A stretch of 64,000 nucleotides of DNA from Capsicum annuum. Taxonomy: Eukaryota; Streptophyta; Magnoliopsida; Solanales; Solanaceae. This document shows positions 286-46,901 of this stretch, in pieces. The stretch lies in contig NC_061118.1 of the NCBI RefSeq assembly GCF_002878395.1, positions 125,262,829 to 125,326,828 of the forward strand, read 5' to 3'. The first letter of the stretch is position 1, and each line of letters starts with the position of its first letter. Made by a program: the position numbers and the translations under genes. A model generated the notes under the pieces. The model searched no databases. It saw nothing but the letters and a program-made list of their open reading frames with translations, and had not been told where the DNA came from.

Positions 286-690
286 GAGAAAATTGAAGAA
301 AATGTGTCTTTGAAATCTTGAATGAAGGATTGGTGACATTGACAAACTTAAAGGGTCAAACATAATTAGGAAAATTGATTAATTTAATTGTGGACTTGAT
401 TAATATTTTTAAAACTTTCTAATCTTTTCAAAAATACAATCAACTCACACCCCTCTCCTCTAAATCAACCGTCTCTCTCATCTCTCTCTCTCTCGACAGT
501 CTCTCTCAACTATCTCCTAACCAACATTTCTGCAGAATTTCTCCCTTCAAACTCCGACGACAAATAGTTGGGCGAGTTCCATTTTGATTTTCAATCGTCA
601 ATCGACATGAAGAAATAGAGAAACTTGAGCCAACTTCTCCAGCAACAATAACTTTGAATTATTTGTCTTCCCATTTCTTCTTTCACAGGA
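286..690 (+). promoter_or_regulatory. A terminus with CT-rich leader of gene A
   Basis: The terminal 170 bp is AT-rich. It is followed from about 445 by a CT-rich leader with CTCTCT runs, matching the reverse complement of 63148-63763. In the right copy the leader ends at a clean donor (CACAG then GTAAAA near 63147). Here the matching site reads CACAG then GAAAAA near 690, so the donor is mutated. This is probably the promoter and 5' untranslated exon of gene A. No obvious TATA box was found. Confidence 0.55.
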
Positions 691-2088
691 AAAAAAGTAT
701 GACTTGAGCCAACTTCTCTTCTAGTATTGGTTAAAAATTTCAATGTTTCTTGCTTAAATTTGAAATGTGGACCGAATAAAACCCTAATTTTTAGAATTTT
801 TTCTCTACTCTTTCCAGTGTAAAATATAATGTTTTGTTGTTATTGTAGTTCTTATTGTCAAACTGTTGATTTGATTTGTTGGTGATTTTTGGTCACCATT
901 GATGTTCTTAGAGTGCGTGTGTTGTGTTTGTATTGCTGGGTTGATTTGTTATTTTTTTTGGTAAAAATGGTATTGCAATAGATGAACCATGTGACGCAAT
1001 AGATTAACCATCTAATGTAATGGATTAACCATCTGACACAACAAATTAACCATCTGATGTAACAGATTAACTATCTAATGCAACAGATTAACTATATGAT
1101 CCAACAGATTAACCATCTGATCCAATAGTTAAACCATCTGTTTCAACAGATAAAATATCAAATGCAACAGATTAAATATCTAATACAACAGATGAACAGA
1201 ACAAATCATTCATCTATTATGACAAATGACTCTTCTGTTTGGAAGAGATCTAAACAGTATTGATCCAATAGATAACTCATTTAGCAACATATGAGTGATC
1301 TGTTTCAACAGATATGTGGCCTGTTTTTATTGTTTCCAATGGATTACTCATCCGCTGCAACAAGTTGCTTATATGCTACAACAGATATCCTACCTAGTAC
1401 AATAGATGAGTGATATATTTTTATTGTTTTCAATGGATTACTCATCCGTTGCAATAGATTGGTTATATGCTGCAACAGATACCCTACCTGGTGCAACAGA
1501 TGAGTAATCTATTTTTATTATTTCCAATGTATTACTTATCCACTGCAACAGGTTGGTTATATGCTGCAATAAATATCCTACCTGGTACAACAGATGAGTG
1601 ATCTGTTATAATTGTTTCCAATAGATTACTTATCAGCTGCAATAGGTTGGTTATATATTACAATAGATAACCTTTCTGGTGCAATAGATGAGTGATCTAT
1701 TTTTATTGTTTCCAATGAATTACTTATCTGTTGCAACATGTTGGTTATCTATTGCAATAAATAACCTTTCTGGTGCAATAGATGAGTGATCTATTTTTAT
1801 TATTTCCAACGGATTACTCATCCGTTGCAACAGGTTGGTTATATGTTGTAACAAATAACCTTCCTGGTGAAATAGATAAGTGATCTGTTTTTATTATTTC
1901 CAATTATTTACTCATTCATTATAATAGGTTCGTTATATATAGCAACAGATAACCTACATGGTGCAATAGATGTGTGGTCTATTGGAACTGTTATTTTACT
2001 GTTGTACATGTTAGGTTTATTGTTATTCTTTTTAACGATGTATGAATCAATTATAATCTATTTTATGTTCCTGTTAATTTAAGATACT
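691..2088 (+). repeat. CAACAGAT repeat array in the gene A leader intron
   Basis: From about 970 to 2000 the sequence is built from variants of CAACAGAT, ATCTGTTG and GATTAACCATCTG. A higher-order unit of roughly 120 bp containing TTATTGTTTCCAATGGATTACTCATC recurs between about 1310 and 1930 (six or more times). An acceptor (TTTAAG then ATACT) just before the gene A ATG suggests this is a 5' UTR intron. Confidence 0.75.
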
Positions 2089-5000
2089 ATGCCTCCCAAA
2101 AGAAAAGAAACTAAATCAAGTCCAAGCAAAGGAACAAGTGAAGTAGCTAGGCTACATCCACCACTCTATGAACTTACTTTACAAGCATTATCTTAATCAG
2201 GAGCAGAAGATAATGAATATAGGAAGGAGGAATGTTTCAAAAGAGATGATCCAAATGTTAATAGCTCTTCCACTGAAGGGTTGGTCAAAACCTTCTACAT
2301 TAATTGTTATCTTGTGAGAATGTAGTGCGATGGTGCCACAGATTTAACGGGTGATTTCATGGTTAAGTCATCCATGAGAAAATCTTTCAACGCCTTCAGA
2401 AAAATACTTTGAGAACAAAAATTGGATTCTTATTTCAAGGAAAGCTGCTTTGGGCAATATCTTGATTTGCCGAAGGACAACAATGCTCGTTTCCAAATGA
2501 AAATGGTATATGATCTTCTCAAGCGGTAGATTTATGTATGAAAATAAAGATAAGATGAATGAGGCATGGATAAATTACTATGGCATGTCTATTTATTTTG
2601 GCTGGAAGGAGTTTGCCATAATTCTACCAGGAAGAAGTTTTCTGTCCAAGAATCCTGAGATGGTTGTCGGCCAAAACTAATAAAAATGTAAAATTTTTTG
2701 ATCTTTTCAATCCCCCGAAGGAAGCAGTAAGTCTAATTCTAATTAAGTTTTTGTTTTAATTAATGATTATTTTAAATAATTTCATCATTATTCTAATATA
2801 TCTACTGATTTATTTTAGATTGTCCTTACGTAGCTTGTTCTGACCAATCAAGAGTTGAAGGTGCCATTTTTTCTTACTTTACGGTCTGTGCAAACTTTAT
2901 CGGACCCTAAGGTCATTGATAGAATAAAAATGGAATTTTTTGGAGCAACAACTATCACAAAAAAAATAATTTTGAAGGGTGGACTTATTGTTGTTGATGA
3001 TGGTAGTGGTAATGATAGTGTTGTTATTGTTGGGGTTAATGATGCTCCTCTTACAGTTCTTGAAACAACAAACCATTATGATTATGATCATACTGGTTAT
3101 ATAGATTTTTTCACTTCTAGCAAATGTTTTGCATGCAAATGTTAAGACTACAAGGCAAAACATAATGGAGTGATTAATGTTATTAATGCACTAACTGCTT
3201 CTGTAAAGGAAATGATATCTAAGAGGGGTGTCATTCCAGTAAAGAGGATTTCATATCTATACACATCACTAGAGATCAAGGTGGCTAAGAGGAGAAGGAA
3301 AGATATTTTCAGGACATCATCAAACATCAAAAAAAAGCAAAATTACAACTCCTCTGTCTTTGTCTTGTACCGCTATTCAATGTACAAGGGCCATAGGAGA
3401 GCAGCATGAGCTAAAGAAGGTGAATGTATGTCATCTCTTCCAATAAAAAAATAGGCACATATCTATTTCAACAGATGATACATCTGCTGGAAATTATCAA
3501 ATACATATATACATTTGTTGTAACTGTTGTCTAACCTATTGCATCAGATGTATTATCTGTTGCAACATATGTCCGTCTGTTTCAACAAATCAAATAGTTT
3601 TTTATACTATTTTAATTTGTACCAATAGATGAGTCTTATGTTGTAATAGATGGGTCATCTATTCGAAATTATTGTACCGCTCAATTTTACCTGTTTGAAT
3701 TTATACCAACAAATAATTCATCTATTATAATATAAGACTCATCTGTTGCAACAGATAGATAATCTGTTGTATATCTGTAATTAGCATTGACAATTCTGGC
3801 TTTTCAGGTGGATGTCACAATAGAAGCTACTGCTGAAGAGTATAATATCGCAGTTGATAATCTATCAACTGCTTCCAAAGAAGAAGAAAAAGTGAAGCCT
3901 GTCAGTTCAGGAAAATGGAAGAAATACTCATTTGAAGGGTTCAACATCTCAAACGAGGCTCTAAAAAATAACAAAGTTAATCAACGACTATTCAGAATAG
4001 ATTGCCGATGGGCTGTTAAAGCATCATGTCGGCAGGTACATTAATCAATTTTAAAGATGTTAATTTATACAATTCTTGTTGTAAAAACATGACATTAACA
4101 CATATAAATCATCATGTAGAAAATAAAATGATGAACACTACAAAGTAAATGAATCGAGTCTTGGTTTTGATATGTTTGACTTTGTTGTTGCTCATCCCGA
4201 AATAAAGAATTGGTTCTATTTGATGTCACAGCCCCAAACTTGCTGGAATAATAAGGTTTAAATGTCATACATATTACTATTATTTAATACTTTATTTAAT
4301 TACATCTGTGTATTGATTTTGTCATCACGTAATCCAAAATATTTGATAATATGTGCAGCACATCGATGTTATTTTTTACTACCTCTGAAAGAAGGCCAAG
4401 TTGCAAATACAAGAACAATACAGATACACGACAGGCAATTGTTTGTACAAAGTTTACATCAATAATGCCTACGATAAGTATTGTCAACAATAGCCGAAGA
4501 TTTTCCTAATTGAGGAATTATTAATTAACATCATCAAAGGTTTTAGCATTCCAGTTGGATTACCTTGGCATTGGTCGATGAAGTGTACATCCCAATCAAT
4601 TCTGATGATGAATTCCATTGGGTGTTGGTTGTCGTCGTCCTAAAAGAGAGGCGTATCTGAGTTTATGACTCGATGTCGCAAAGAAGACGTTCTGGGCTGT
4701 TATTTGAGATACAAAAGCTGGCCAAAATATTGCCTACTTATCTTCATATGAGTGGTTTTATGGATCAAAAGATTTGTACTGATTGGTTGATGATTAAAGT
4801 ATATCGGGATCAAATGTGTAATCCATTTTATGTACAATATGTTGAAGGAATTGCTCAACAAACCATTGGTAGCCTGTAAGTATAAGTATTATGATTTAAT
4901 TTCATTTCATAAATTTCACAACGCTTACATGAACTACAAGATATGGATTATATATTTTTTTAAAACGTAGGATTGCGGTCTTTTTGTTACTGCTTATGCT

Positions 5001-5213
5001 GAGTATTTGAGCGATGAATTACAAGTATCAAATGATGGACTTGATATTGGATTACTCTCCAAAAGATATGTTGTTCTTGTATGGAAATACAAAGAAGCGA
5101 AAGCTCAGAAACCATATGCAAGCGACATTAAAGATCCACGACGATCAAAGATGAATTTCGTAGCACCGGATGAAGAACAAGTTGTCCATATTGAGCAGAT
5201 CTTTATAGCTTGA
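2089..5213 (+). pseudogene. Gene A copy 1: Ulp1-family (C48) protease gene, DUF1985 part deleted
   Basis: The ATG at 2089 opens [20 protein letters not shown], matching the start of the copy at 61830. Exons can be followed to 2726 (donor GCA/GTAAGT), 2820-3419, 3808-4035, and a C-terminal set from about 4180 to 5213, with the last exon starting near 4971. The C-terminal part has the Ulp1 cysteine-protease triad: HWVL (His, near 4605), VYDS (Asp, near 4663) and DCGLFV (Cys, near 4974). The family cleaves SUMO or SUMO-like conjugates; in plant MULEs it is an accessory gene. Defects: stops near 2195, 2333, 2412 and 4651, a frameshift near 4575, and loss of the DUF1985-like segment, since the frame jumps near 2612 from GWKEFA to EEVFCPRILRW. 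The copy at 59351-61830 keeps DUF1985 but lacks the protease core. Confidence 0.8.
3420..3790 (+). repeat. CAACAGAT array inside a gene A intron
   Basis: This is the intron between a donor at 3420 (AAGAAG/GTGAAT) and an acceptor at 3806-3807 (TTTTCAG). It holds about a dozen CAACAGAT-type motifs from 3460 to 3770. The matching intron of the right copy (about 59590-59960) is also filled with them. Confidence 0.7.
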
Positions 5214-5827: not shown

Positions 5828-8800
5828 TCATCCCTGTCTTTGTACATATTTTTCTTTATACACGGGCTCCAACCATTTAGTTAGTACCCCATAAGACCAG
5901 AACTCTTGCATCTTTTCCACAATGGCATCGTACATACCGTCCATTTTTATGTCGGTCAGCAAATACTCGATGTATACAAGCGAATACGACCTGCACACAG
6001 CACTGGTTTTATTTTTTTAAAGGTGGATGTTCTTATTTCGAACTTCAAAATCCCATGATTTCTTCTTCAAGACTTTTTTCGACAAATGATCCATCAGTTT
6101 ACTCTACGTCGATAACTTGGGAAACAACTTCAAGAGTGGCTGAACGTGGGTTACAAACTTGCCCTCCTTGAAGATAGGTAAGTTGCAGTCATAAACCTTA
6201 ATTATTCCCTCATTTAGTTGTATCTCAATAGCGAGAAAATGTTTGACTTCCACGTTTATGACTGCAAGGATTCTTTTTTCCTTGGTCCAGCTCTTGTCGT
6301 GTGGATATGGCCTCTTCCCTCAAACATAGTTAATCATTTCTTCATCCCATTTGAACGTAGAAACTAATGAATCAAATCCCCGGCCACTGGGAGGAGCTTG
6401 CCTATGTAAAGTATCATACCTACTCTGGAAATTATTATAGAAGTTGGCGTCCATCATCCTATCGATAGCATCATAAGCATTCGGGTATGCTAATTGCCTG
6501 CCCCTTATGAGGCAGAAAAATTCATCAACATACTGTGGTATAAGAAGACAATTTTTAAATAGGTTAGTAATTGTAAAGAAGAAAAACATAGTGGAAAGAT
6601 TCTATTGCAGAGGGTTGTCTGAATCAGTTCACAGATTACCCAGCTAACGCAACTTGTGCAAGAGATGTGTATTATTTAGCAACAGAACACCTAGCTATTG
6701 TAACATATTACACATATGTTGTATAGCTTTTTCTTTATGGAGTAGATTAGAAGGATAGGTTAGCAAAATCAAACTTACATTGTCCACGTATAACTCAATC
6801 ATATTTGTCATACTCATGAAGTCTTGGGCGGCAAATAAATGCATGGTGTGTTCTTGTGGAGGTTTCATCTCTTCAGTCATGATTTTTTCCATTTCCTTTT
6901 TCTCTTCATTACCAAGTGTCGCGTATATGTCCACCTTCTTCAGCGGCCCCTGAACTTTAACAACTTGCAATTTTTTCTGTTTTCAGAATGAAGAGTATTT
7001 GGCTAATGTTTCTTCTCTTCTTCCTAACCACCACTGTAGGAGTGTATGGCTCCCTCACCTTCTTGGATGGTATGACACCGCTCTTGGATATCAACTCCCT
7101 GGCAGCTTTAGTAATAATCTTTAGTTTTTCAAGGAGTTTATCTTCTCTGTCCTTGCATACTTTGCATTTATAGTTTGAGCATGAGGGTGAAGAGAGGTGA
7201 GAGGGACCTGTGCAAGGGGTGTTTTCAAACGTATTTAATTTTCAAGAGCACCAACATGCTCATAATCATGACTGGAAGTAGCAGCAGCAGCAGTAGCAGG
7301 ATGGCTGCCACCATCATCAATAACTCCACCAGCAACACCCCCAGAAGAAGCACCCGGATCTGTTGTAGTAGGTTGGTCATGAAAATCTTCAACATTAGGA
7401 TGACCTTACCTAACTACTCTTCTTATGGCTGTTGCTCCATCCAATTCCTTCTTTATTAACTCCACCATCGGGTATACTGTTATATCAAAAAGACCTAGAG
7501 TAATAAAAGAAGCCATCCCCAACTCCTGCTCAGTAGGCACGATCCAAGGATGCACAACCTATAAAAAAGACAGAAGATATTTAAATAATATAATAATAAT
7601 TTGCAGTCAGTTGGGTTACATGTTAACACAGCCAACATATGAAACAAATGATCTATCTTTCATAATAGTTGATTTGTCTGTTGCAACAGATTGATAATAT
7701 GTTGCATTAGATTACCCATCTGCTACATAATTTGTAGTAGATAGGTAATCTGTTGAGTCAGGTTTAGGGAACCAGAGCAACAGATGGTTAATCTATTGTA
7801 AAATATGGATCGTCTGTTGTAACAGATTACCCATCTATTGCACCAGTTATAGTTGATGGGTAATCTATTGCAACAGACGATCCATTTGTCGTAACAGATG
7901 GAACATCTATTTTAATATCTTTCTTTCTGTAAGGAAAATTATTTTAGTTGAAAGAAGACGTACTGCATCATTCGAAGGGTTAAAGATATCAGCCTTCTTA
8001 ATTTTTTGTTGCTTTTTGTAGCCAACCACCTAAGGATCCTTGGATGAGAAACCTTACTCGGGTAATCCTTGAATTGCTTTCGGAGGTGAGAAATGACTTT
8101 AAGTGCCCAAGTCTAAGAAATGTAAACAGAAAGCAAGCAAAAAAAGTCATAATAACTATATTCAACATAAATTAATGGATGAGTAAAGATAGTGATTAAT
8201 TTTACCATGAAAGCCCAAGGAAAGCCGTATAATGTGATCATCCCTATGGATAGCTTTGTCAGTAAATATTTGACAGTCAAGTAGTAGCTGTCATATCCCC
8301 ATGGATAATCGTTCAATTTCTCAAAATCATCAGCAAGCGCCAATAAATCATTTTCTATGACTTTCCTGACGTCTCTTGCCAATATAACGGAATGGACAAA
8401 CCAAACTAAGCACAATTTATCCCTGTACTACTTTGGTATGGTTTTATCCTCGAGTGTGCTATTAAATCCCCCACTTTATTTCCTTGCATTTTTTGGACCT
8501 TTTGTGGGGTGTTTCCTTTATAAGAGGTTCTTTTGGACGATCGCATCTCAAGCCCGCCACTATGATAAACTCTTTCAATCCAAAACAAATCGGCATACCA
8601 CAGTAGTTGATCCAGATTTCATCCATCTTTTTTTTCCCTCCTTTGAATCTTTATCATCCCCCGCATACTTGATCCTACACTTGAGAAGACCTTACACCAT
8701 GCTCATTTGGAAACAGAGAGTGTGGTCCTCAGGCAGCTTAAAAAAATACGCAAAATAGCTCCTCTTAAAAAGTTCGTCTATGTTTTCATTCTTCATAATA

Positions 8801-9108
8801 CTCCTAAATTCATCAAAACCTTTCCTCAACTGATATTTAAGTACAAGATCTCCAGTTACTTTTGCAGAGTAGTCTATTGGCATCGCAACACAAAACCTGT
8901 CAATACTAATAGTTTTGACAAGATCATTATGGGATTTCGATATTAATTCATGCCCCATTACTAAGAAGGATTTCTCACTTTCGTCAGCTTCATTTTTCCC
9001 TGACTGAGATTATTCAGGAAGTTTCTCCGAATCTATCTGTACTTTAGCCATTTTTGTTAGGTGGAAAGAAGTTGATCCACTTTCAATTTCGTTTCTTTTG
9101 GGAGACAT
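5828..9108 (-). pseudogene. Gene B copy 1: DUF1985 plus Ulp1-like protease gene
   Basis: On the minus strand the ATG at 9108 opens MSPKRNEIESGSTS. A conserved N-terminal block (GHELISKSH, then SIDRF, near 8945) is followed by a DUF1985-like region around 8410-8190 (CLVWFVHSVILARDV, DDFEKLNDYPWG, LYGFPWAFMV). After an array-filled intron comes a linker with QGPLKKVDIYATLGNEEK near 6955. The C-terminal domain near 6590-5828 looks like a C48 protease: KHFLAIEI (His), KVYDCN (Asp) and VCRSYSL (Cys near 5985), with the usual Gly after Cys changed to Arg. It ends EPVYKEKYVQRQG then stop. Stops and a frameshift break it (for example near 9010, 8690, and between 8590 and 8420). It converges on gene A and is a divergent paralogue of it, with its own counterpart at 54237-57722. 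Probably a dead accessory gene. Confidence 0.78.
7600..7930 (-). repeat. CAACAGAT array inside a gene B intron
   Basis: About 15 CAACAGAT / ATCTGTTG motifs lie between the DUF1985-side exon and the linker exon of gene B. The matching intron of the right copy (about 55530-55890) also consists of these repeats. A smaller group lies near 6640-6720 in the next intron. Confidence 0.7.
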
Positions 9109-9712: not shown

Positions 9713-9840
9713 AAAAGAGAGAAAACGTTGAATACAAGCGAGAAAGAAGTCGAAAATAACAACTATGTGGTCGAAAATAGAAAGAAAATTGATCTGTTTT
9801 AAAGGGTTGAGCAATATATTGAGTAGTTGTTGCCTGTATT

Positions 9841-9901
<61 letters not shown>

Positions 9902-10045: not shown

Positions 10046-10049
10046 ATAT

Positions 10050-13000
10050 AGTATTCGAAATATTAATTTAATGAGAATCTTTTCAACTCAGAGTGATCGA
10101 TCGATGACTCGGGTCGAGATGAACTCAATACCAACATCATGCAATTGCAAAGACTCAATTAAAGTTGTAGTTGACCCTATGAACTCATCCCTAGTTCTAC
10201 CTAAGTCAATTTAGGTACTAGCTTAATATTAAGTTGATGAGAAACTTTTCAACTCAAAGTGATCGATCAACGACTCGGGTCGAAATGAACGCAATACCAA
10301 CACAATGCTATTATAAAGACTCAATTGAAGTTGTAGTTGACCCTATAAACTCATCCATAGTTCTATATAAATCGATTTAGGTACTAGATTAACATTAAGT
10401 TAATGATAATCTTTTAAACTCAGATTGATCGATCGATGACTCGGGTCGGGATGAACGCAATACCAACACCGTGCAATTGCAAAGACTCAACTAAAGTTGT
10501 AGTTGACCCTATGAACTCATCCCTAGTTCTACCTAAATCAATTTACATACTAGCTTAATATTAACTTAATGATAATCTTTTCAACTAAGAGTGATCGATC
10601 GATGACTCAGGTCGGGATGAACGCATTTCTAACACAATGTAATTGCAAAGACTCAATTGAAGTTGTAGTTGGCCCTATGAACTCATCCCTAGTTCTACGA
10701 AAATAAATTTAGGTACTAGCGTAAAATTTAGTTAATGAGAATCTTTTCACCTCAGAGTGATCGATCGACGACTTGGGTCAGGATGAACGTAATACCATCA
10801 CCATGCAATTGCAAAGACTCAATTAAAGTTGTAGTTGACCCTATAAAGTCATCCCTAGTTCTACCAAAATCAATTTAGGTAGTAAATTAATATTAACTTA
10901 ATGAGAATATTTTCAACTGTGAGTGATAGATCGATGATTCGGGTTGGGATGATCTCAATACTAACACCATGCAATTGTAAAGACTCAATTGAAGTTGGAG
11001 TTGACCCAATCCTGAGTTCTACCTAAATCAATTTAGGTACTCTCTTAACATTAAGTTAATGAGAATCTTTTCAACTCGGAGTGATCGATCGATGACTCGG
11101 GTCGGGATGAACGCAATACCAACACCATGTAATTGCAAAGACTTAATTGAAGTTATAGGTGGCCCAATGAATTCATCCCTAGTTATACCTAAATCAATTT
11201 AGGTACCAGATTAACATTAAGTTAATGAGAATCTTTTCAACTCAGAGTGATCGATCGATGACTCGGGTAGGGATGAACAATTAACAATACTATGCAATTG
11301 CAAAGACTCCGTTGAAGTTGTAGTTGACCCTATGAACTCATCCCTAGTTCTACCTAAATCAATGTAGGTACTAGCATAACATTAAGATAACGAGAATCTT
11401 TTAAACTCAGAGTGATCAATCGATGACTTGGGTCAGAATGAATGCAAAACCATTACCATGCAATTGCAAAAACTCAATTGAAATTGTAGTTAGCCCTATG
11501 AACTCATCCCTAGTTATACCTAAATAAATTTAGGTAATGTCTTAACATTATGTTAATGAGAATCTTTTAAACTCAGAGTGATCAATCGATGACTCGGGTC
11601 GAGATGAACGCAATACCAACACCATGCAATTGCAAAAATACAACTAAAGTTGTAGTAGACCCAATGAACTCATCCCTAGTTCTACCTAAATAAATTTTGG
11701 TACCAGCTTAATATTAAGTTAATGAGAATATTTTTAACTCAGAGTGATCGATTGATAACTGGGGTCGGGATGAACGCAATACCAACACCATACAATTGCA
11801 AAGTCTCAATTAAAGTTGTCGTTGGCATTATGAACTCATCCCTAGTTCTACCAAAATTAATTTAGGTAGAAGCTTAACATTAAGTTAATGATAATATTTT
11901 CAACTCAGAGTGATCGATCGATGACTCAGGTAAGGATGAATGCAATACCAATACCATGCAATCAGAACGACTCTATTGAAGTTGCAGTTGGCCCTATGAA
12001 CTCATCCCTAGTTCTACCTAAATCAATCTAGGCACTAGATTAATATTAAGTGAATAAGAATTTTTTCAACTCAGAGTGATCGATCAATGACTCAGGTTGG
12101 GATGTTCTCAATTCCAACACACTGTAATTGCAAAGACTCAATTGAAGTTGTAGTTGACCCTATGAACTCATCCCGAGTTCTACCAAATCAATTTAGGTAC
12201 TCACTTAACATTTAGTTAATGAGAATCTTTTTAACTCAGAGTGATTGATCAATGACTCGAGTCGAATTGAATGCAATACCAACACCATGCAATTGCAAAG
12301 ACTTAATTAAAGTTGTAGGTGTCCCTATGAACTCATCCCTTATTCTACCTAAATCAATTTAGGTACTAGTTTAAAATTAAGTTAATGAGAATCTTCTCAA
12401 CTCAGAGTGATCGATCGACGACTCGGGTTGGGATAAACGCAATACCAATATCATGCAATTGCAAAGACTCAATTAAAGTAGTAGTTGACCCTATGAACTC
12501 ATCCCTAGTTGTACCTAAATCAATATAGGTACAAGCTTAACATTTACTTAATAAGAATCATTTCAAGTTAGAGTGATCGATCAATAATTCAGGTCGAGAT
12601 GAACACAATACCAACACCATGCAATTGTGAAGACTCAATTGAATTGTAGTTAGCCCTATGAAATCATCCCTAGTTATACCTAAATAAATTTAGGTACTTG
12701 CTTAATATTAAGATAATGATAATATTTTTAACTCAGAGTGATTGATCGACAATTCGGGTCGGGATGAACACAATACCAACATGTAATTGTAAAGACTCAA
12801 TTGAAGTTATAGTTAGCCCTATGAACTAATCTCTATTTATACCTAAATCAATGTAGGTACTAGCTTAACATTAAGTTAATGATAATCTTTTTAACTCAGA
12901 GTGATCGATCGATGACTCGGGTTGGGATGAACACAATACCAATACAATGCAATTGCAAAGACTCAATTAAAGTTATAGTTGACCCTATAAAATCATCCCT

Positions 13001-16875: not shown

Positions 16876-19800
16876 ATAGGTTCGAAGGAATAAATTGCTT
16901 GCAGATGGAACCACTTCATATGTGGAAGGTATGTATTACTGATAATGTTATCGTGAAAACACACATAGAGAATACTAATTTTGTGAATGTTGTTTTTACC
17001 ATTTAGTAATTAATCATTTAAATAAGATATCTACAATTTTACAATTAAGTTTGATAGGTCCGAACTGATAAGGCTGAGGGACCATGAATATGGTTTTGAT
17101 ACCCTGTTAAGATTTAATGTCAATTATTGCTCATGTTTATGTGTCAAGAATTATGAATAGATCTATTTTTGGTGTCATTATAAAGAGATTCAATAGCAAT
17201 GGCACTAACTTTTAGGGTGTATTGGACTCTGAGAAGGCCTTCGAAGCCTCCCAATGCTTCAACCAAGAACGAAAATCAATATGGTTACTGTCCTAGCACA
17301 AATTTATATAGTTGGGTTGCTCAGGGTGATGATTATATGCCATAAGGTATGGTAGGAGAATACCTGCAAGGGTAAATAAGGGTTTGATGAAAGATTATAT
17401 GATCTAAGAGCTAATTGAAGAAGAGAAATAAGGTAGAAAGGAACTTCTAACGAATCTAACCGATGAAACTAAATTAGAATATGAGAAATCTGAATCAAGT
17501 GCAAATATGAAAGTGTATCCAATAATGAAAAATCCGTCTGTTGTTTTCCTAAAAAAGTATAGTACAAATGGTTTATTTGCTAGGGAGCTACAATTAGGTA
17601 GCGTGGTCGGGATGATCACCTACATAGAAAATAGCAGAACACCAAAAAAGTAACCTCACGGGCATCAAGGGTTGAAATAATGTACAATAAGTCAAGAAAA
17701 CTTGCGCCAATAATAGCTGCAGTTAAAATAAAGAATCTAAGCGAAGGCGTCAATTTTTGAATTTTAAATTACATCCCATGCCTTCTTGTTTGTGGTTCTG
17801 ATTAAGTCTACTGCTATTGATTTGACCTGATCAAAACCACAAACAAGATTGAAAGACAGATTAAGTATCATTAATCCCTTAGCAATATGTATATAATTGA
17901 CTATGTTTTCTAGCCTTAGCATGCTTTCAAAATATCTTGGAGAAGATCAGAGGCTTGTTGTAGTATGTGAATCCCAATAATTTTCAAGCTTTCCTCCAAC
18001 TTGTTGATTCTGTATTCAATCTTTTTATTGTTGTCGTTAAGCTTAGTTAGAGTTCTTGGTTTTTTATGAGCTTGTCAATGAGGAACACTTTGTTCAAAGT
18101 TGTGGCATTGTAAAAGACCTTCAAAAGGCTTCCAGAATACTTTTCTCAGTAGGCTTAAATGATACATCTAGGGTTCATTATGTTGGTTTTAGGTCAAAAT
18201 GTGGTGATGCACACTCAAGCAGTAGTCCCAACAGTTGAATAGCTCACTCTTATCGAGCGTTGTTCAATACAGCTTGCTCAACAAACCTTCAAAGGATTTG
18301 ATTGGTCAATTAGCCTGGAATTACGTAACATTTGATCTAAAATGATTCTACCAATCCTATCAATTGTTACGTAACTCCAGGATCATTACCCTATCAAAAC
18401 CTTTGCCTAAGTTAGTGCACAAATGAAATGAACTCAATCTCTCAGTTTTTCTGCTAATGACTCTTCTACCATATGGAGAACAAAATATCCATCATGTAAA
18501 AGTCTACACCATTGCCAAAAATTCTTGTCACGATGAAAGTCTTGAGAAGGCATGACTAGTAATGTCTCAATACTAGTCATACTGAGAGATCACTAGTCAT
18601 GCCTTCTCAAGACTTTCGCTATGGCAAGAATTTTTAGCAACGGTGTAGACTTTTGCATGGCGGATATCTTATCCTCCATATGGAAGAAGAGTCATCAGTA
18701 AAATGGATTACAGATTGAGATCATTTGATTTGTGAACTAACTCATGCAAAGGTTTTAATAGGGTAATAATCCTAGAGTTACATAACGTTTGATAGGCTTG
18801 GTAGAATCAGTTTAGATCAAACGTTACATAATTCCAGGCTAATTGGCCTATCATATCCTTTGAAGGTTTGTTGAACAATATGCATTGAACAATGTTCGAT
18901 AAAAGTGAGTTGTTCAACTATTGGGACCACTGCTTGAGTGTGCATCAACAAATTTTAACCTAAAACAAACATAGCGAACCCTACATGTATCATTTAAGCC
19001 TACTGTAAAAAGTATTCTAGAAGCCTTCTGAAGGCCTTTTACAATGCCACAACTTTGAACAAAGTGTTCCTCATTGAAAAGCTCATACAAGACTAAGAAC
19101 TCTACACTGACCTCAATGATAACAACGACAACATTGAATACAGAGTCAGCAATTTGGAGGCAAGCTTGAAAATTATCGGGATGTACATACTACAGCAAGC
19201 CTTTGATCTTCTCCAAGATATGTTGAAAGCATGCTAAGGCTAGAAAACACAATCAATTATATACATATTGCTAAGGGATTAATGATACTCAATCTGTCTT
19301 TCAATCTTGTTTGTGGTTATGATCAGGACAAATGAATAGCACTGGGCCTAATCGAAACCACAAACAAGAAGGCATGGGATATAATGTAAAATTTAGAAAT
19401 TGATGTCTTTTCTTAAATTCCTTATTTTAACTGCAGCTGCTATTGGCGCAAGTTTTTTTGACTTATTGTACATCATTTAAACCCTCGATGCTCGCGAGGT
19501 TGCTTTCTTGGTGTTCTACTATTTTTATGTAGGTTATCATCCTGACTATGCTTCCTAATCGTACCTCCCTAGAAAAGTGTCCATCTACATTATTTTTATT
19601 TTAGAGAAACAACATATGGATTTACATTACTGGATACACTTTTATATTTGCACTTGATTCAGATTTCTCATGTTCTAATTCAGTTTGATTGTCCAGATTC
19701 ACTAGAAATTCCTTTTTATCCTATTTCTCCTCTCCAATTAACTCTTAAATGATATAATCTTTCATCAACTCCCCTTTCTCTTATAGGCATTCTCCTTTGG

Positions 19801-20283
19801 CTCCTTCAGGCATATAATCATCTTCTCAAACAATCTTTCCATATAAATTTGGGTCAGGGGAATTTCTATTGATTTTTCATTCTTTTTTGATGCAGTGCGA
19901 AGTTTCGAAGGCCTTTTCGGAGTCTAATGTACACTTAAAGTTAAGCCCAATTGCTATTGGATCTCTGGAATAACACCAAATATTGATCCCTTCTCAAAAA
20001 TTGACACACATAAACATGAGCAACAATCGTCAGTAATTCGTAATAGGGTATCGGCACCATCATCATGGGGCCCTCGGCCTTATCAATTCAAACCTATCAA
20101 ACTTAACTATATAATGCAGGATCTTGTTTAAATAATCAATGCCTAATCATTTAAAAACAACATTCATAAAAACATTGTACTTTGTGCGTGTTGTCCCGAT
20201 GACCTTATCAGTAATACTTAACTTCCACACATAAAAGTGGATCCACCCATCTGCACGCACCTTATTCATCCTAACCCATCTAT
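16876..20283. repeat. Long hairpin (foldback) of element 1
   Basis: The left arm (16876-18560) and right arm (18592-20283) are inverted copies of about 1.7 kb with a 31-bp loop at 18561-18591. The arms meet in CTTGAGAAGGCATGACTAGT and its complement. They are similar but not identical, so the inversion is not recent. The left arm reads in the sense direction of module C and keeps stretches that look coding, for example MWKVCITDNVIVKTHIEN near 16920 and LIRLRDHEYGFDTLLRFN near 17065, now broken by stops. Outer parts of the arms match the shorter hairpin at 48328-49995. A transcript from the module C leader would contain both arms and could fold into long dsRNA. Confidence 0.85.
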
Positions 20284-20608
20284 GGCTTAAATTGAATAAA
20301 TAGATGACTACCAAGTTGAAACAGATGACATATTTATTTAAATTACCAAACTATTATGGACATATGTTATGACAGATGATCAATCTGTTGCAACATATGA
20401 CATATCTGTTGGAAAAATCAAACAAATATATCCATCTGTTGCAACAGATTATCAATATATTGTAAGTTATCTAATAAATAGAATATATTTTGGAACAGAT
20501 TACCCATCTGTTAGATTTATTTTTAAATTATTTTTTTTCTTTCTGAAATACAATAAAGATAATATGTTGTATTTAGATCCATTATTTTAATTTACATAAG
20601 CTGAAAAG
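20284..20608 (+). repeat. CAACAGAT cluster
   Basis: Several GATCAATCTGTTGCAACA-type motifs lie from 20300 to 20520. They are cut off by the LTR that begins at 20609. Confidence 0.6.
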
Positions 20609-22276
20609 TGATGTTCCAACTTTTGATGGAACATTTGGCATCATCTTCTTGGGAAAATTGTATGTTTTCAAGCAATAAAAGTGGTATTTAATGAGTTTTT
20701 TTAGTATTTCAGGGAAAGGAGTGAATCACAGAAGAAACTTGGAAAAAGTAGCAATTAAAGGAATTTGACGGTCAAAATGGTGGACCGTCAGACTTGCGAT
20801 GGACCACCAGTTGGACCTTCAGGCCTTATCCAGAACATGGCCTCCCGAAGGACTTAGTGAAGGACTATATGGTGGACCGTCAGACTTGCGACGGACCACC
20901 AGATGTGCCGTCAGGCCTATCCAGAAGTCACTCTCTGAAAGGACTTAGTGACGGACAAAATAGTAGATCGTCAGTCTTATGAAGGACCACCAGGTGTGCC
21001 GTCAGGCCTTATCCAGAAGTCACTCTCCTAAAGGACTCAGTGACAGATGAAATGGTAGACCGTCAGTCTTATGACGGACCACCAGTTGGATCTTCAGACC
21101 TTATCCAAAAGCCACTCTCCGGAAGGACTCAGTGACAGACAAAATGGTGGATCATCAGTCTTATGAAGAACCACCAGTTGGATCGTCAAACCTTATCCAA
21201 AAATAACTTTTCATGAAGATTCAGTGACGGACCAGATGGTGGACCGTCAGACTTTTGACAGACCACCACTTTGGCCGTCAACTTGGATGCGGCTTTTCTG
21301 ACTTCTAAATTTTAAATTCCTTTTTATCTGAGAACATATAAATACCAAATTTTAGGGTTAGCATTGGAATCTTTTATCCTGGAAAAATTTATCATCTATT
21401 GAAACTCTCTGTAACCTAGTACCTTAGGACTGAAAGATATCTTTGGGGAAGTTAGTCATTCAATTCATTATTGAAGATTCAAGAACTGATTCTTAAGATT
21501 TTTGTAAGTGAATTCTAAATGTATTTATGAATAATACAAGAATTATTTCTTCTTCTTCTATGGAATTTTGTAGCTAGTTCCCAAAACTAGGGTTATGGAA
21601 TCCTTAATGTGAAAAGCATTTATGGGTTGTGTATCAAATTGAGTTCCATGAATAACTGATATTGTACAAAACTTTCTTCAATTTAATGGCTTTTCTTTGT
21701 TGCAAACTTGAAAGCTGAGCCCAAGAAAATCACTTGTCTGAAAGGAAAGTGTTTGTTGGGAAAAGAAAGTGTTTACATGAATTCTAAGGGCTTTAACCTT
21801 TGGATTAATGGCAAATGCCCTAACAGGATTAGCTTACATGAGAAAATGGTTGAAATAACAATGTATCCTTTGAGTTTGAGAGAATTAGAGGATAATCTAT
21901 CCACTTAGGTTGAGAGATAAAGAATAGGATTCAACCCTTCTTGCAATTGATTTTGCTAAATGGAACTCTTAAGTGATTCACAACCCTAATTGTGCTAGCA
22001 TTTTGGTAACCATTGCCCTGGTTTGTTTAATCTCATTAAATTACTAATTTTAAAGAGAATCATTCTTTGGAATACTCCTGTTACAATCAATTACTTTATA
22101 AGTTACAAATCAAAAAACTCCCTTATTTAGGAACCTCTGATCAACAGTCCAGTAACGATTACAATATTTAGTGAGCACATTATTCCCTATGGGATTCGAC
22201 ACCCAACCTAGTTGGGTTCTATATTTGACAGCGACCGCTTATACTTTCTAACGAGAGTTATAATTTGGGCGTATCA
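20609..22276 (+). repeat. 5' LTR of the Athila element
   Basis: Its last 387 bp (21890-22276) are repeated at 25497-25882. It has TG..CA-type ends (TGAT / ATCA). Inside lies a minisatellite at about 20770-21290. Confidence 0.8.
20765..21290 (+). repeat. Minisatellite within the LTR (GGTGGACCGTCAG units)
   Basis: About seven degenerate units of 70-110 bp, each with GGTGGACCGTCAG, a following GACGGACCACCAG and then CCTTATCCAGAAG. GGTGGACCGTC and GACGGACCACC are near complements, so each unit can form a small stem. Confidence 0.75.
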
Positions 22277-22278
22277 AA

Positions 22279-22300
22279 TTTTGGCGTCGTTGTCGGGGAA
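22279..22300 (+). other. Primer-binding site of the Athila element
   Basis: TTGGCGTCGTTGTCGGGGA starts three bases after the LTR end. It is one or two transitions from the TGGCGCCGTTGCCGGGGA seen in Athila/Tat elements. Confidence 0.7.
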
Positions 22301-22407
22301 TACGATTGTCAACTAAGTTTGTGATTGTTAATCGACCCTTTCATCAAAGATTCCCAAATTTTATTTTTTATTTGTTGTTTTTGTTTTGTGCAGGTTGAGT
22401 GTCTTGT

Positions 22408-25400
22408 ATGCCAAGTATGCGGAGATCAGGTCAACCATTATTACCTATTCATCCAGAACCACAGCTCATTGGTAGAATGGACGGTCACCAAGACCCAAAA
22501 AGAATAGCTGCTCAGCAGGAGCAGGCTAGGTTAGCAGCCTTGGCAGTCGTGCAAGTAAACCAGTAGAATATAGATAATGATGGTCAGGAAGTAAACCCAG
22601 ATGATGAGGACCTGGGAGATGATGAGTTATTAAACCCAAGACGTGCAGTTGATGTAGCCGTACCAGCAAACAAAAATATCAACAGAAATTGCCAGGCTAG
22701 GATGAGACCTAAACCTCGAGCTATTCAGTTTGCTATAGACGATGATGATGATGACCTGGATGGGGCTGGTGCTACAGGGGCTATTATTCCTCTACCTCTA
22801 GCACTTGGAGCTAAGTTTAATATCACGAGTACCATGATCCAGTTATTGCATATTAAGAGACTATTCGGTGGACTTATGGGTGATGAACCGAATATGCATT
22901 TGATTAACTTTATCTCTACATGCAAATCATTCGATTATCCATAAGTAGGAAAAATGCTATTCGGCTGCGATTATTTCCGTTGTCTATTTTTGGAGAAGCA
23001 ACTTTATGGTTGAATGGGCTAACCCCCGATTCTATTACAAATTAGAGAAAATTGAAAGATGCTTTCTTAGAATGGTTCTTTCCGTCATCCAAGAGGGCAC
23101 AGTTAAGAGATGAATCAGTAATTTTAGGCAGCTTCCAACTGAAGCTCTCTATGAAACTTGGAAGAGGTTCAAAAAGAAGCTCACTCAGTGCCCGAATCAT
23201 CAGATAACCTATATCCACCTAAAAGAGATATTATATAGGGCCTTGAATTCGTTGACTAAGCCAATAGTGGATAATGCTACGGGTAGGTCATTCATGGACC
23301 TCACTTTTCCTGAGGCGTCTAAGATGCTAGATCGTATAACAAAGCAGAGCAGATCTTGGCATACCAGGGATTCTGATGTAGCAAGCTCCACTGTATCTAT
23401 TGGCATGACTGCAGAAAAGATGCGAAGGGAAGAAGAACGTGACCAAGACGTAGCTTATATAAAGACACAGATGGACCTTCTTACTAAGCATTTATTATCA
23501 GGAAAGATAGAAAAGGTTAAGGTTGTGGAATCACAGGATAGAGCTGACTCTGATTCTGAGAAGGAAGCTAATTATTTGAACAATCAGGGGGGTTTCTGAG
23601 GCAATGGTCAAGGAAACCAAGGTCAGAACTACTATGATAGATCCAGATACAAGGACCGAAACCAAGGAAAATATAAAAACAAAAATGATAGGAGTGGGTT
23701 GTATGTACCTCCTAAAAATCGTGAGGCTACTGCAACTAGCTCTGTGAAGATGTCCATGGAATATATGATGGCTAAATTATTGAAAGGGGTGAAAGAAACC
23801 AATACTAGAGTAGCAGAGATGAAAAATGATTTATCCTCAATGAATCAATTGGTTGACTCGCACTCTACTTTAATAAAACAGTTGGAGCAGCAAATGAACC
23901 AACTTTCTGCTGCGTTTAATCAGAGGAAGGTTGGCACTCTACCAAGTGATATAGTTCAAAATCCAAGGAAGGATGGTTCGTGCATAGCAATTACCACTAG
24001 GAGTGGTAAAGTACTGGCAAGCCCATCTGTAGGTAAGCCTATGGTGGATACTATAGTAGAGAATGTTGATAAAGCAAATATTGATCATCCGGTAGAGTCT
24101 GAAAAATTGAATAAGATCATTCATGATGTTGCATCCAATAGTCAATAGGCTGATGAGTGGAAAAGAGTGAAAGACAAGGAAAAGAAAGTAGTGGTGAACA
24201 CTCTCCCAAAACCACATCCTCCTTTATCTCAAAGATTGAAGAAAAAGGCTAAGAATATAAAGTTTAGCAAATTCTTAGCCATGTTGAAGCAGTTGACAGT
24301 AAATGTACCTTTGGTCGAGGCACTTGAGCAAATGACAGGGTGTGACAAATTTATGAAGAACCTTTTGACAAAAAAAAGAGCGGCGATCTATGAATCGGTG
24401 GATAATCTCCATCATTACAGTACTATTGCTACAAGGTCCTTGGCGCAGAAGAAGGCATACCCAGGAACGTTCACTATTCCTTGCACGGTAGGGTCTTTGG
24501 AATTTGATAAGGCTTTATGTGATTTGGGAGCTAGCATTAACTTGATGTCTCTAGATGTTTATAAAAAGTTGGGTTTGGGAGACCTCACACCCACCAACAT
24601 ACGACTCATGATGGCGATAGGTTGGTAAAATGACCTGTTGGTATTTTTTATGATGTATTGGTGAAGGTAGCTACCTTCATATTTCCTATAGATTTTATAA
24701 TTCTGGATTGCGAGGTGGACTTCGAGGTGCCCATAATCTTGGGTCGACCTTTCCTCGTAACCAGAAGTGTGCTGATAGATTTGCGAGCTAATGAGCTTTT
24801 ATTTAGGATGAATGATGAAGTGGTGCATTTTGATGTGTGCAAATCAATGAAACAGCATAAAGAGATGAGCATGTTCTTAATTGTTGATGTATATTATGAG
24901 GACGAGTGGGAAATACCAATAGAGGAGCAGCTTATTGTTGAGCCATTAGCCTCAGTGCTTATGAATTTTAATTATGAATATATTACGGATTATGAAGAGA
25001 CCGTTTGTGCTTTGATAGGAATGGGATCATATTCTTAAACCCCTAATAAGCTCGATCTTGATCTCAAGAATCAACCAACACCACCGGTAAAGCCATCTGT
25101 CAAAGAGCCACCAGTGTTAGAATTGAAAGAATTTCTCGATCATTTGAGGTACGTGTTCTTGGGTAGTGGTAATTCACTACCTATCATTATTGTTGTTAAT
25201 CTGGGTGAGCAACAGGTGGAAGCTCTCATCTCTATTCTTAAGAGATATAAGTGAGTTATTGGTTGACATATTGCGAATATCATCGGTATTCCTCCTGGCA
25301 TATGTATGCACAAAATTTAGCTAGAGGAGGATTATGTACCTACCATTGAGCATCAACATCGCCTGAACCCACTTATGCAAGAGGTGGTAAAGAAAGAAAT

Positions 25401-25495
25401 CATCAAGTGGGTAGATGCAGGGGTGGTATTTCCCATATCAGATAGTAAGTGGGTGAGTCCTATGCAATGTGTGCCTAAGAAAGGGGGCATGACAG
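22408..25495 (+). pseudogene. Athila gag-protease and N-terminal RT, degraded
   Basis: The frame starts MPSMRRSGQPLLPIHPEP at 22408. The gag capsid region follows around 22985-23240 (LWLNGLTPDSI, LRDEIS, TWKRFKKKLTQCPNHQ). A long gag/linker frame continues at 23243-24148, with a coiled-coil-like stretch near 23820-23920. A retroviral-type aspartic protease lies near 24480-24600 (IPCTVGSLEF, then CDLGASINLMS). DLGAS replaces the commoner DTGAS, as is normal for Athila. After about 25090 the RT entry region reads EEDYVPTIEHQHRLNP, KKEIIKWVDAGV and SDSKWVSPMQCVPKKGG, and stops abruptly at the LTR junction. In-frame stops occur at 22564, 22942, 23597, 24146 and 24626, among others. The protein assembled capsids and primed reverse transcription; it is not functional here. 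Confidence 0.85.
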
Positions 25496-25496
25496 T

Positions 25497-25882
25497 GGAT
25501 AATCTATCCACTTAGGTTAAGAGATAAAGAATAGGATTCAACTCTTCTTGCAATTGATTTTGCTAAATGGAACTCTTAAGTGATTCACAACCCTAATTAT
25601 GCTAGCATTTTGGTAACCATAGCCCTGGTTTGTTTAATCTCATTAAATTACTAATTACATAGAGAATCATTCGTTGGAATACTCTTGTTACAATCAATTA
25701 CTTTATAAGTTACACATAAAAAAAAAACTTATTTAGGAACCTCTGATCAACAGTCCAGTAACGATTACAATATTTAGTAAGCACAGTATTCCCTGTGGGA
25801 TTCGACACCCAACCTAGTTGGGTTCTATATTTGACAGCGACCACTTACACTTTCTAACAAGAGTTGTAATTTGGGCGTATCA
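25497..25882 (+). repeat. Partial 3' LTR fused to RT
   Basis: It repeats 21890-22276 with a handful of substitutions. The junction with RT is at GACAGT/GGATAATC, with only two to three bases shared, so the deletion that removed the rest of pol and the LTR start probably arose by end joining. Confidence 0.8.
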
Positions 25883-25948
25883 AAAGTCAACAGTTTTATT
25901 TAAAAGAAGGTTGTGGCTTTCTTACTGACCCATTCTAATTCAATCCTT

Positions 25949-25956
25949 TATAAATA
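25949..25956 (+). promoter_or_regulatory. TATA box of small Asn-tail ORF, copy 1
   Basis: CCTTTATAAATAGGTC is repeated almost unchanged before all three copies of this ORF (also at 27664 and, on the minus strand, 47315). Confidence 0.6.
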
Positions 25957-25995
25957 GGTCTCTCCTTACTCATTCATTCTACTCCACTTCTAGAT

Positions 25996-27640: not shown

Positions 27641-27663
27641 TAACTCATTCAAATTCAATCATC

Positions 27664-27671
27664 TATAAATA
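27664..27671 (+). promoter_or_regulatory. TATA box of small Asn-tail ORF, copy 2
   Basis: ATCTATAAATAGGTCCCTCC lies about 105 bp before a spliceable leader ending CTGACTCAG/GTAAGT near 27772. Confidence 0.65.
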
Positions 27672-27893
27672 GGTCCCTCCTTACTCAATCGTTCATTCAA
27701 CTACACTCTATTTATTTATTGTATCCTGGCATTCGTACTACACCTTTCACCACTTTCTCTTCCCTGACTCAGGTAAGTTTTTTTCTTGCTTTGTATCTAA
27801 ATATACTCAATTTATAGTATACGTTGTATTACATTTGAATTTCTTTATTTACTTTTGTTTTCACATTTTTTGTCAATCATTCGTGTTCTAGAT

Positions 27894-28097
27894 ATGACTG
27901 ATCCAGTATGGAACGTTGCTATTTTACAATATGCCGTGCGGGAACTTCAGACGTAGGTGCATGACCTGCAATAGGAGGTTGTTTCCATGAGGAAAAGAAT
28001 GCTCTGTGAGATCCGCGGTCTGAGGAGATCCCTGCTGCTGTCGGTTGAAGATTGGTCGGCTGACAACAACAACAACAATAATAATAATAATAATTAG
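27894..28097 (+). pseudogene. Small coiled-coil ORF with poly-Asn tail, copy 2
   Basis: It has a complete architecture: TATA box, leader exon, donor GTAAGT (about 27773), acceptor TGTTCTAG (27884-27891) and ATG at 27894. The protein would read MTDPVWNVAILQYAVRELQT, stop (codon 21), VHDLQ, stop, EVVSMRKRMLCEIRGLRRSL, then VEDWSADN and a run of Asn to the TAG at 28095-28097 (67 codons). The first TAG is at the same alignment position as in copies 1 and 3. The conserved length, promoter and intron suggest a real gene of the element. The premature stops say this copy makes at most a 20-residue peptide, unless the stops are edited or read through. Function unknown. Confidence 0.55.
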
Positions 28098-28930
28098 ATT
28101 ATTTTTTTCTTTTAGTATATGTAATTTTATTTGTTTTTATTTAATAAAAATAATTATGTTTGATCGGCATTGACGTTTTAATTCTTATGTAATTTTCATT
28201 TTTTGTATTATCTTATCAACAAAAGTATCAACGATTGGACGTAAGAAAAAATTTTGAATTTAGTAGCAATAGCAAGAGTTGAAACATATTGGTTATCTAT
28301 TAGGTTTGTGGCAGGGGCTGATTTATGTTGTTCCAAAAATAAGACTAGTATGTTGCAACAAATTACTTATATGTTATAACAGATAATCAGTCTGATGCAA
28401 CAGATAATAAGTCTGTTGCAATAGACTAATCTATTGATCGACTTTGACATTTTAATTCATATTTAATTTTTATTTTGTCTATTATCTTCTCAACAAACAT
28501 GTTGACGATTGGATGTAAGAATTTTTTTTTAATTCAGTAGCAATAGCAAGAGTTGAAACATATTGGTTATCTGTTGGGTTTGTGGTAGGGGCTGATTTGT
28601 GTTATTCCAAATAGATTACTCATTTGTTGCAAGAGATTACTCATATGTTGCAAGAGATAACCAGTTTGATATAACAGATAATACGTCTGTTGCAATAGAT
28701 AACCCTTATGTTGTAATAGATTTCCCATCTATTCGATTCATGTTACGGGCACTATAGATCCATAAACATGAATCCAACATATGAGTCTTCCGTTGCAACA
28801 AATTACTCATCTGATGCAACAGATGAGTGATCTGTTCAAATTGTGGACACTTATGTTGGATTTATGATCGGTTTCAATCCATTATTGAAAAAAACAGCAG
28901 TAGCTATGTACCCAGATGATATATTCGACT
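28098..28930 (+). repeat. 3' flank of the small ORF, duplicated, with CAACAGAT array
   Basis: A segment containing ATTGGACGTAAGAA and AGTTGAAACATATTGGTTATC occurs at about 28150-28335 and again at 28433-28615, a tandem duplication of roughly 285 bp. A diverged version follows copy 1 at 26365-26480. CAACAGAT / GATAACC motifs fill 28340-28440 and 28600-28850. Confidence 0.7.
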
Positions 28931-29387
28931 AAAAATCATAATTTTACTTACCTATGAAGTAATGCCGAAGTGGAAAGTGATGAAAGAAACAAAATTTAAC
29001 CTAAAAAATTGGTTAGATAGCAGCAATAGCGGTAACAACAAAAACAACAAAGGTCGACAAGAAGAAGATGAAGATGATAATGAAGTAGAAGATGATGATA
29101 ATGAAGCAGAAGAGGATGAATAAAGTAGCAACAACAATAATCGTGAAGAGAGAGAAAACAACAACGGATAAGAAGAGAGAGAAACATGTCTTTTTTCCCT
29201 CAGTTTCCTATTATATTAACTAACATATGGATCAAAGTGTAAATTCAAAAACTTGTGGGTTATTTCCAAACTTTCCCAACTTTCTTAATCAATAATAAAG
29301 TAATTATCACCTACACTCAATTATTAAGACTTGAGTCACCTACACCTCATTTTCAAACTTTTTTTGTCACCTACAGCTCAAAACCCC
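28931..29387 (-). promoter_or_regulatory. D terminus of element 1 with leader but no transposase
   Basis: On the minus strand this reads from the element end (GGGGTTTTGAGC) through a CTT/CTC-rich leader to a donor TTCATAG/GTAAGT near 28950. It matches 42984-43460, where the same leader precedes mudrA. Here the intron runs into CAACAGAT repeats and the small-ORF region, with no mudrA coding sequence. Serine- or leucine-rich ORFs in this tract (28952-29187) are leader sequence. Confidence 0.6.
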
Positions 29388-46900: not shown

Positions 46901-46901
46901 T

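Follow-up and report, generated by a model that had tools for sequence, protein, structure and literature searches.

The 64,000-nucleotide stretch of Capsicum annuum DNA analysed here (C8:125262829-125326828, hereafter the window) holds two copies of a large Mutator-like element (MULE), inverted relative to each other with a 13.6-kb spacer between them (Table 1). Copy 1 is a transposase-less element running from its left (A) end to its right (D) end through a motif array, two genes with DUF1985 and Ulp1-type protease domains, a satellite-like array and a long palindrome; copy 2 belongs to the same family and is of a transposase-bearing type.

Two insertions of one MULE family

Copy 1 is bounded by the 9-bp target-site duplication (TSD) ATGTAACTA, which occurs exactly twice on the forward strand of the window, flush with both element ends, and is absent from the reverse strand, confirming the perfect duplication proposed in a preliminary description of this DNA. 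The terminal sequences GAGAAAATTGAAG, at 286, and CTCAAAACCCC, at 29377-29387, both directly abut it. The same description had homology with copy 2 stopping at exactly these two ends; in the self-comparison the limit on the left is 286 (= 63763), and on the right the alignment runs to 29391 (vs 42980), four bases beyond the claimed end. The proposed size of 24-29 kb is corrected to 23.8 kb for the element proper because a 5,273-bp long terminal repeat (LTR) retrotransposon is nested inside it. Within this retrotransposon, the mutually matching stretches (392 bp) are 94% alike, and to the left of the first of them the insertion includes a 92-bp tandem array. Rfam searches at gathering scores gave no matches in the whole window.

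Copy 2 has a duplication of its own, TTGCTAGTT/TTGTTAGTT, in which 8 of 9 bases match. Since this TSD differs from that of copy 1, copy 2 is a separate insertion rather than a segmental duplication of copy 1, and the two look like independent insertions. The spacer between them itself contains several repeated blocks at 30383-42231, each of ~70-315 bp; 30383-30517 is repeated at 41385-41518, for instance, as is 38624-38897 at 41519-41803.

Table 1 Features of the window (positions count from its first letter; TSD, target-site duplication; ORF, open reading frame).
Feature	Positions	Strand	Remarks
Left TSD of copy 1	277..285		ATGTAACTA
Copy 1, transposase-less MULE without terminal inverted repeats	286..29387	+	Collinear with an independent locus at C8:105.25-105.28 Mb, itself with a 9/9 TSD
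Largest motif array of copy 1	974..1983		21-bp and 94-bp units with CAACAGAT/ATCTGTTG
Gene 1, copy 1	2089..5210	+	DUF1985 part 2089-2623; Ulp1-type protease end 4971-5210, DCGLFV
Gene 2, copy 1	5831..9009	-	DUF1985 8116-9009; Peptidase_C48 5831-6601; convergent with gene 1
Satellite-like array of copy 1	10062..15540		~33 copies of a 166-bp unit; related 166-175 bp arrays in several relatives
Palindrome of copy 1	16876..20279		3.4 kb; arms ~1.7 kb, 82% alike
Nested LTR retrotransposon	20610..25882	+	gag-like ORF; not part of the MULE; TSD AAAGT at 20605-20609 and 25883-25887
D-end region of copy 1	28763..29387	+	Aligns with the copy 2 D end
Right TSD of copy 1	29388..29396		ATGTAACTA
TSD of copy 2	42975..42983		TTGTTAGTT in element orientation
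Copy 2, same family, transposase-bearing type	42984..63763	-	
MuDR/MURA-like transposase of copy 2	44040..46354	+	Decayed; MULE domain, SWIM, Cys-rich end
Palindrome of copy 2	48343..49993		Arms ~0.83 kb
Satellite-related block of copy 2	51388..52953		
Gene 2, copy 2	54417..57719	+	DUF1985, Ulp1-like; both Pfam matches under the curated cut-offs
Gene 1, copy 2	59354..61875	-	DUF1985, Ulp1 remnant
TSD of copy 2	63764..63772		TTGCTAGTT in element orientation

The family belongs to the MULE superfamily on two counts: its 9-bp TSD lies within the 8-11 bp of that superfamily, and it includes a MuDR-type transposase with MULE and SWIM domains. The transposase gene of copy 2, which the preliminary description leaves unmentioned, has one in-frame stop and several frame changes; once joined, its product matches the MULE domain at 1.2e-12 (48.5 bits vs a cut-off of 27.6), whilst SWIM scores 22.1 bits as a single exon and 18.9 in the joined protein (cut-off 19.6) and DBD_Tnp_Mut 12.8 (cut-off 25). 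Among 94 related proteins, those of Capsicum are closest (71-72% for the best two), followed by Solanum and Lycium, with Brassicaceae and Humulus at 29-36%. No transposase match was found in copy 1 or in the loci C8_105 and C1_1128, for each of which both ends are in hand, and copy 1 is therefore non-autonomous. A transposase start lies within 1.5 kb of the D end in copy 2 and C12_640, and in none of 20 fetched D-end loci, which include copy 1 and were picked by likeness to it. Comparison of the A end with the reverse-complemented D end over 40, 100 and 200 bp was no better than in shuffles for either copy (p 0.33-0.89), and because no terminal inverted repeats (TIRs) were thus found we class the element as a non-TIR MULE. 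In copy 2 and C12_640, gene 1 is antisense to the transposase and gene 2 runs in the same direction as it; the former is a trait of KI-MULEs, defined as non-TIR MULEs with antisense Ulp1 genes (PMC2528002). We read the family as a KI/VANDAL-like MULE with a transposase-less subfamily moved in trans; as DUF287 was not found, it is not filed as a VANDAL.

Ends, duplications and module order across the pepper genome

Searches of the 3.21-Gb assembly returned first-pass candidates for the A end (2582), the D end (3189), the arm of the palindrome, or hairpin (6606), and a transposase exon (6591), of which 40 A, 40 D, 40 hairpin and 150 transposase places were scored; none of these figures is a verified copy number. 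With the window's own places and three secondary hairpin matches excluded, 39 places of each of the first three kinds were available for co-location. Pairs within 50 kb numbered 4 A-D, 4 A-hairpin and 7 hairpin-D, spread over 11 loci (two loci gave three pairs each), and all 15 were ordered and oriented as predicted, where chance would give ~0.14 pairs even with orientation disregarded. The earlier proposal that the A and D ends belong together mostly passed this test: all four A-D pairs were in A-to-D order, with 0.047 expected from the best-scoring places outside copy 1 (39 for each end), and two of them had 8/9 duplications and two had none. In these samples, 9 of 39 hairpin places had an A or D place within 50 kb. 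When seven A ends were followed for 20-30 kb, a D end was reached in three, with duplications of 9/9, 9/9 and 7/9; two of the seven, C18936 and C10_2035, have no D end in hand and stand outside the set of pairs described next.

That set comprises ten A/D pairs, two in the window and eight elsewhere (C1:89.9 Mb counted once), whose 9-bp flanks match at 9/9 in four cases, 8/9 in three, 7/9 in one (C12:64.0 Mb, with the right site taken one base upstream of its first placement), 5/9 in one and 2/9 in one. The predicted duplications therefore stand, at 7-9 of 9 bases, for eight of the ten and fail for the other two. Over all ten, 74 of 90 bases agree between the left and right 9-mers, a figure reached in none of 100,000 random re-pairings, and four perfect matches arose in 18 of 100,000. 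From 31 flanking 9-mers at 28 loci (three loci gave two each; the site of copy 1 and AAGTTTCTA occur more than once) we derived an apparent near-palindromic target preference, WWGTWACTW (AAGTWACTT). This preference raises partial matches between unrelated sites: among 221 cross-pairs (13 left x 17 right flank sites, two of them really same-element pairs), 29 reached at least 7 matches and 9 reached 8, and none reached 9.

At the two failing loci, C1:13.92 Mb and C7:205.0 Mb, the A end, hairpin and D end are correctly ordered with flanks of only 5/9 and 2/9, for which recombination between copies or nested copies might be the cause. At C1:89.899-89.980 Mb, two A ends lie 19.7 kb apart, with AAGTTTCTA before each and again after a D end 60-80 kb away; this is perhaps a single insertion that was later reshaped by internal duplication.

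Read from A to D, the element consists of the motif array, gene 1 forward (DUF1985, Ulp1), gene 2 reverse (Ulp1, DUF1985), the satellite-like array and the palindrome, after which copy 2 and C12_640 carry the reverse transposase. Satellite, palindrome and the DUF1985 part of gene 2 are missing from C1_1128; C18936 includes 6,000 unread bases and gave no gene 1 match; and in C1_899 (30 kb) gene pieces are duplicated and inverted, with no satellite or palindrome match. Copy 1 and C8_105 are collinear over their whole length except for indels, and matches >150 bp have 69-87% identity. Because the same internal order recurs at independent loci, the modules were not inserted one by one, contrary to what the preliminary description had named as the finding that would speak against a single unit. 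It is accordingly very improbable that a single segmental inverted duplication accounts for both copies, or that they are patchworks of singly arriving modules, with coincidental 9-bp repeats. The inversion of copies only 13.6 kb apart and the two unmatched A/D pairs would suit such an origin, but the TSDs differ, unlinked copies share the module order and homology between the copies ends at the element ends. TSDs, co-location and collinearity all speak against segmental duplication and module-by-module assembly, which we reject.

The 166-bp satellite-like unit of copy 1 is about nucleosome length, near 16 helical turns, and contains no exact 8-bp motif. Palindrome arms measure ~1.7 kb in copy 1 and C8_105, 1.4 kb in C10_2035, 0.97 kb in C12_640, 0.83 kb in copy 2 and 0.65 kb in C7_2049. 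In most comparisons between copies, left arms are closer to left arms than to right arms, a pattern absent for copy 2/C8_105, C12_640/C10_2035, C12_640/copy 1 and C7_2049. By this measure the palindrome seems older than the split; concerted evolution of the arms was not observed in most comparisons. Three open reading frames of the hairpin matched no Pfam family.

The motif backbone and the two DUF1985-Ulp1 genes

The repeat-motif backbone described earlier was borne out as a family-specific, phased and mostly non-coding dyad array. Its unit, from 272 aligned sites, is the 21-bp dyad ATCTGTTG-CAACAGAT-N5 with a 21-bp repeat. Beyond the largest array, copy 1 has further motif-rich kilobases at 3-4, 5-6, 7-8, 15-17, 20-21 and 26-29 kb (at most one mismatch). 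Exact copies of CAACAGAT/ATCTGTTG number 48 in copy 1 (over 19,625 bp, with the satellite and the LTR-pair region at 21887-25884 excluded) and 58 in copy 2, against ~1.1 (maximum 4) in first-order Markov shuffles. None occurs in the 13.6-kb spacer, the satellite or the LTR-pair region, and at one mismatch the spacer has 18 sites vs 12 in its shuffle. Seven elements or element parts carry 1.15-2.93 exact copies per kb, whilst beyond the D end at two loci there is one in 7.0 kb and none in 19.5 kb. Across five elements, 14 of 229 exact motifs fall in coding-like DNA, where 58.5 would be expected.

Spacings on the same strand peak at 21, 42, 63, 94, 73, 103, 51-52 bp and so on, with a best period of 10.4 bp (R = 0.67, n = 1560; the median R of 150 control 8-mers is 0.15). 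The unit lengths of motif arrays (n = 20) are likewise phased, with R of 0.51 at 10.45 bp and 0.45 at 10.4 bp, compared with 0.07 and 0.06 for the unit lengths of non-motif arrays (n = 29). It is quite improbable that these arrays are by-products of tandem slippage bound by no protein, and that the Ulp1 genes are SUMO proteases acting on host proteins. Tandem repeats do grow by slippage, several array units are off phase and the gene 1 consensus keeps a protease triad, but the same motif occurs in arrays of 20 unit lengths favouring helical multiples, which the 29 non-motif lengths do not favour, and it avoids coding sequence.

As the preliminary description had it, there are two distinct protease genes, found here to be convergent DUF1985-Ulp1 genes in both copies. 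Both copies also have a palindrome and a satellite-like array. Gene 1 of copy 1 is damaged, ~0.53 kb of the DUF1985 coding sequence of its relatives being gone at 2623/2624. DUF1985 is recognised in gene 1 of copy 2 at 3.6e-20 (72.8 bits vs a cut-off of 35.1). Peptidase_C48 in gene 2 of copy 1 is barely over its cut-off (1.9e-4); among relatives, gene 1 matches it at 4.1e-11 and 1.6e-6, and gene 2 at 1.5e-8. As the pieces of gene 1 in copy 1 gave no Ulp1 match in Pfam, its assignment is taken from these relatives. A joined gene 1 query retrieved 473 proteins; the 120 listed are all from Capsicum, many with both domains, and the majority consensus of 41 of them keeps the His-Asp-Cys triad. Against PDB, the gene 1 alignment reached SENP2 at E 0.0076 and the gene 1 protease of one relative reached SENP1 at E 0.3, outranked by an unrelated aminopeptidase (0.036), and the gene 2 protease of copy 1 had no match. 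A structure prediction of P0095 (DUF1985-Ulp1, 41 rows) had a mean predicted local distance difference test score (pLDDT) of 44.1 and was not used. Several element-related pepper proteins (P0097, P0100, P0021, P0046 and P0076) are found under host-gene names (acyltransferase-like, EIN4-like) or fused to NB-ARC in gene models.

A candidate self-protection cassette

In Arabidopsis, VANC21 binds a short motif that forms dense arrays in the non-coding parts of its own family, leading to sequence-specific loss of methylation, and VANC proteins carry DUF1985 and DUF287 (PMC5735166; background on VANC anti-silencing and VANDAL elements in PMC10398659). According to a review, some VANC genes also carry Ulp1 (KIU), and VANDALs with KIU act on their own kind of motif (PMC13317346). 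We infer the same anti-silencing mode of action in pepper because the DUF1985-Ulp1 genes and the family-specific, phased, mostly non-coding motif match the parts of the VANC system. Copy 1 is thus probably a non-autonomous non-TIR MULE of pepper with a self-protection (anti-silencing) cassette in place of a transposase, a reading to which we give a probability of roughly 0.6. More specifically, the copy 1 type may be a transposase-less MULE subfamily whose two-gene, target-specific anti-silencing system reads a helically phased palindromic code, a tentative description that we hold somewhat short of even odds.

Around the directly observed boundaries, TSDs, module order, domains, motif enrichment, coding avoidance and phasing, the following sequence of events may be drawn. 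Copy 1 would have moved by cut-and-paste with a 9-bp staggered cut, served in trans by a MuDR-type transposase from relatives such as the copy 2 type, its own type presumably having kept a self-protection cassette in place of a transposase. The two DUF1985-Ulp1 genes would encode VANC/KIU-like proteins, at least one of which may bind the helically phased ATCTGTTG-CAACAGAT dyad in the non-coding DNA of the element and, once bound, remove DNA methylation solely from members of the family. Two further modules, the palindrome and the satellite-like array, would be inherited. If transcribed, the palindrome could yield double-stranded RNA and so be a natural source of silencing small RNAs, which the anti-silencing system would have to outrun.

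Binding of a transposase to the dyads remains the main rival: they could have spread from the ends into the interior as sites for the element's transposase, or for an accessory protein of transposition, and be unrelated to silencing. Both ends of copy 1 have dense arrays within 2 kb (35 and 18 sites per kb, at most one mismatch), a transposase in an element lacking TIRs needs another recognition sequence, and dyad symmetry fits a dimeric DNA-binding protein. Motif-rich stretches also lie far from the ends, however, between and within genes, and in non-TIR elements with DUF1985 proteins such arrays are the targets of VANC; we therefore consider this rival unlikely.

Several observations weigh against a self-protection cassette with a phased code. 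The 9-bp flanks of two A/D pairs, at C1:13.9 Mb and C7:205.0 Mb, do not match. VANC21 motifs have a single orientation, whereas the dyad is two-sided. In C8_105, 9 of 55 exact motifs fall in coding-like DNA, near the 14.7 expected. Seven of the 150 control 8-mers are phased at least as well as the motif; as 36-86% of their sites are no more than 30 bp from a motif site, compared with 24% of all bases, they belong partly, though not wholly, to the motif arrays. Several motif arrays are individually off phase (e.g. 47, 48, 54, 75, 274 and 400 bp), some 21-bp arrays have no motif at one mismatch, and tandem growth alone could be a partial source of the phasing. As to the proteins, DUF1985 in gene 2 is under the Pfam cut-off in both copies (30.8 and 30.3 bits vs 35.1; 3.4e-7 and 4.8e-7), and the same holds for Ulp1 in gene 2 of copy 2 (0.0053, 17 vs 20.7); DUF287 is absent from the Pfam matches and from the domains of the 120 listed of 473 proteins; and the AlphaFold model is too poor to support a DNA-binding fold.

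The preliminary description had suggested that the element may be undescribed. This is only partly right, since non-TIR MULEs with Ulp1 genes (KI-MULEs, VANDALs) have been described before, but the combination of features was not met: a double DUF1985-Ulp1 cassette with a dyad code, palindrome, satellite-like array and transposase-less type was not found in the literature searched, mostly outside subscription journals. VANDAL21 and VANDAL6 likewise are MULEs without or with degenerate TIRs, with a DUF1985 protein and arrays of specific short motifs in mainly non-coding DNA (PMC5735166, PMC10398659). The pepper element differs in its two convergent DUF1985-Ulp1 genes, satellite-like array, 1.3-3.5 kb palindrome and unmatched DUF287, and in a dyad 8-mer where VANDALs have one-orientation 8-9-mers (PMC5735166). 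KI-MULEs (Kaonashi) and the Ulp1-carrying MULEs of Arabidopsis, melon, grape and rice are also non-TIR, with Ulp1 antisense to the transposase (PMC2528002, PMC13317346); the pepper family has two Ulp1 genes, one per direction, another motif, and a transposase-less type that keeps both genes. Solanaceae MULE clades with a 9-bp TSD and without TIRs are tabulated in PMC6446971, where MULE-Solanaceae_1 and _2 share these features and MULE-Solanaceae_1 also SWIM; their table entries, and that of MULE-Capsicum (from amino acid sequences only), give no Ulp1 gene pair, arrays or palindrome. By its title and the review's account, Sasaki 2022 (EMBO J), on the antisilencing of Mu-like transposons in eudicots, concerns the same mechanism and may already cover solanaceous elements; it reportedly treats the sequence, density and helical periodicity of VANC motifs.

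As far as the literature searched shows, VANC-type anti-silencing has been worked out in Arabidopsis. The DUF1985-Ulp1 genes that stand under host-gene names in pepper protein sets are a practical annotation problem, and the family is also relevant to the spread of 24-kb DNA transposons through a 3.2-Gb genome. If the self-protection reading is true, the family would represent anti-silencing beyond Brassicaceae through a DNA code of its own, and the copy 1 type would be a parasite of its transposase-bearing relatives that repays them by holding all family members free of methylation. The pepper family, which combines a distinct motif with two candidate proteins and numerous copies, would allow a direct test of the co-evolution of protein and DNA code outside Brassicaceae.

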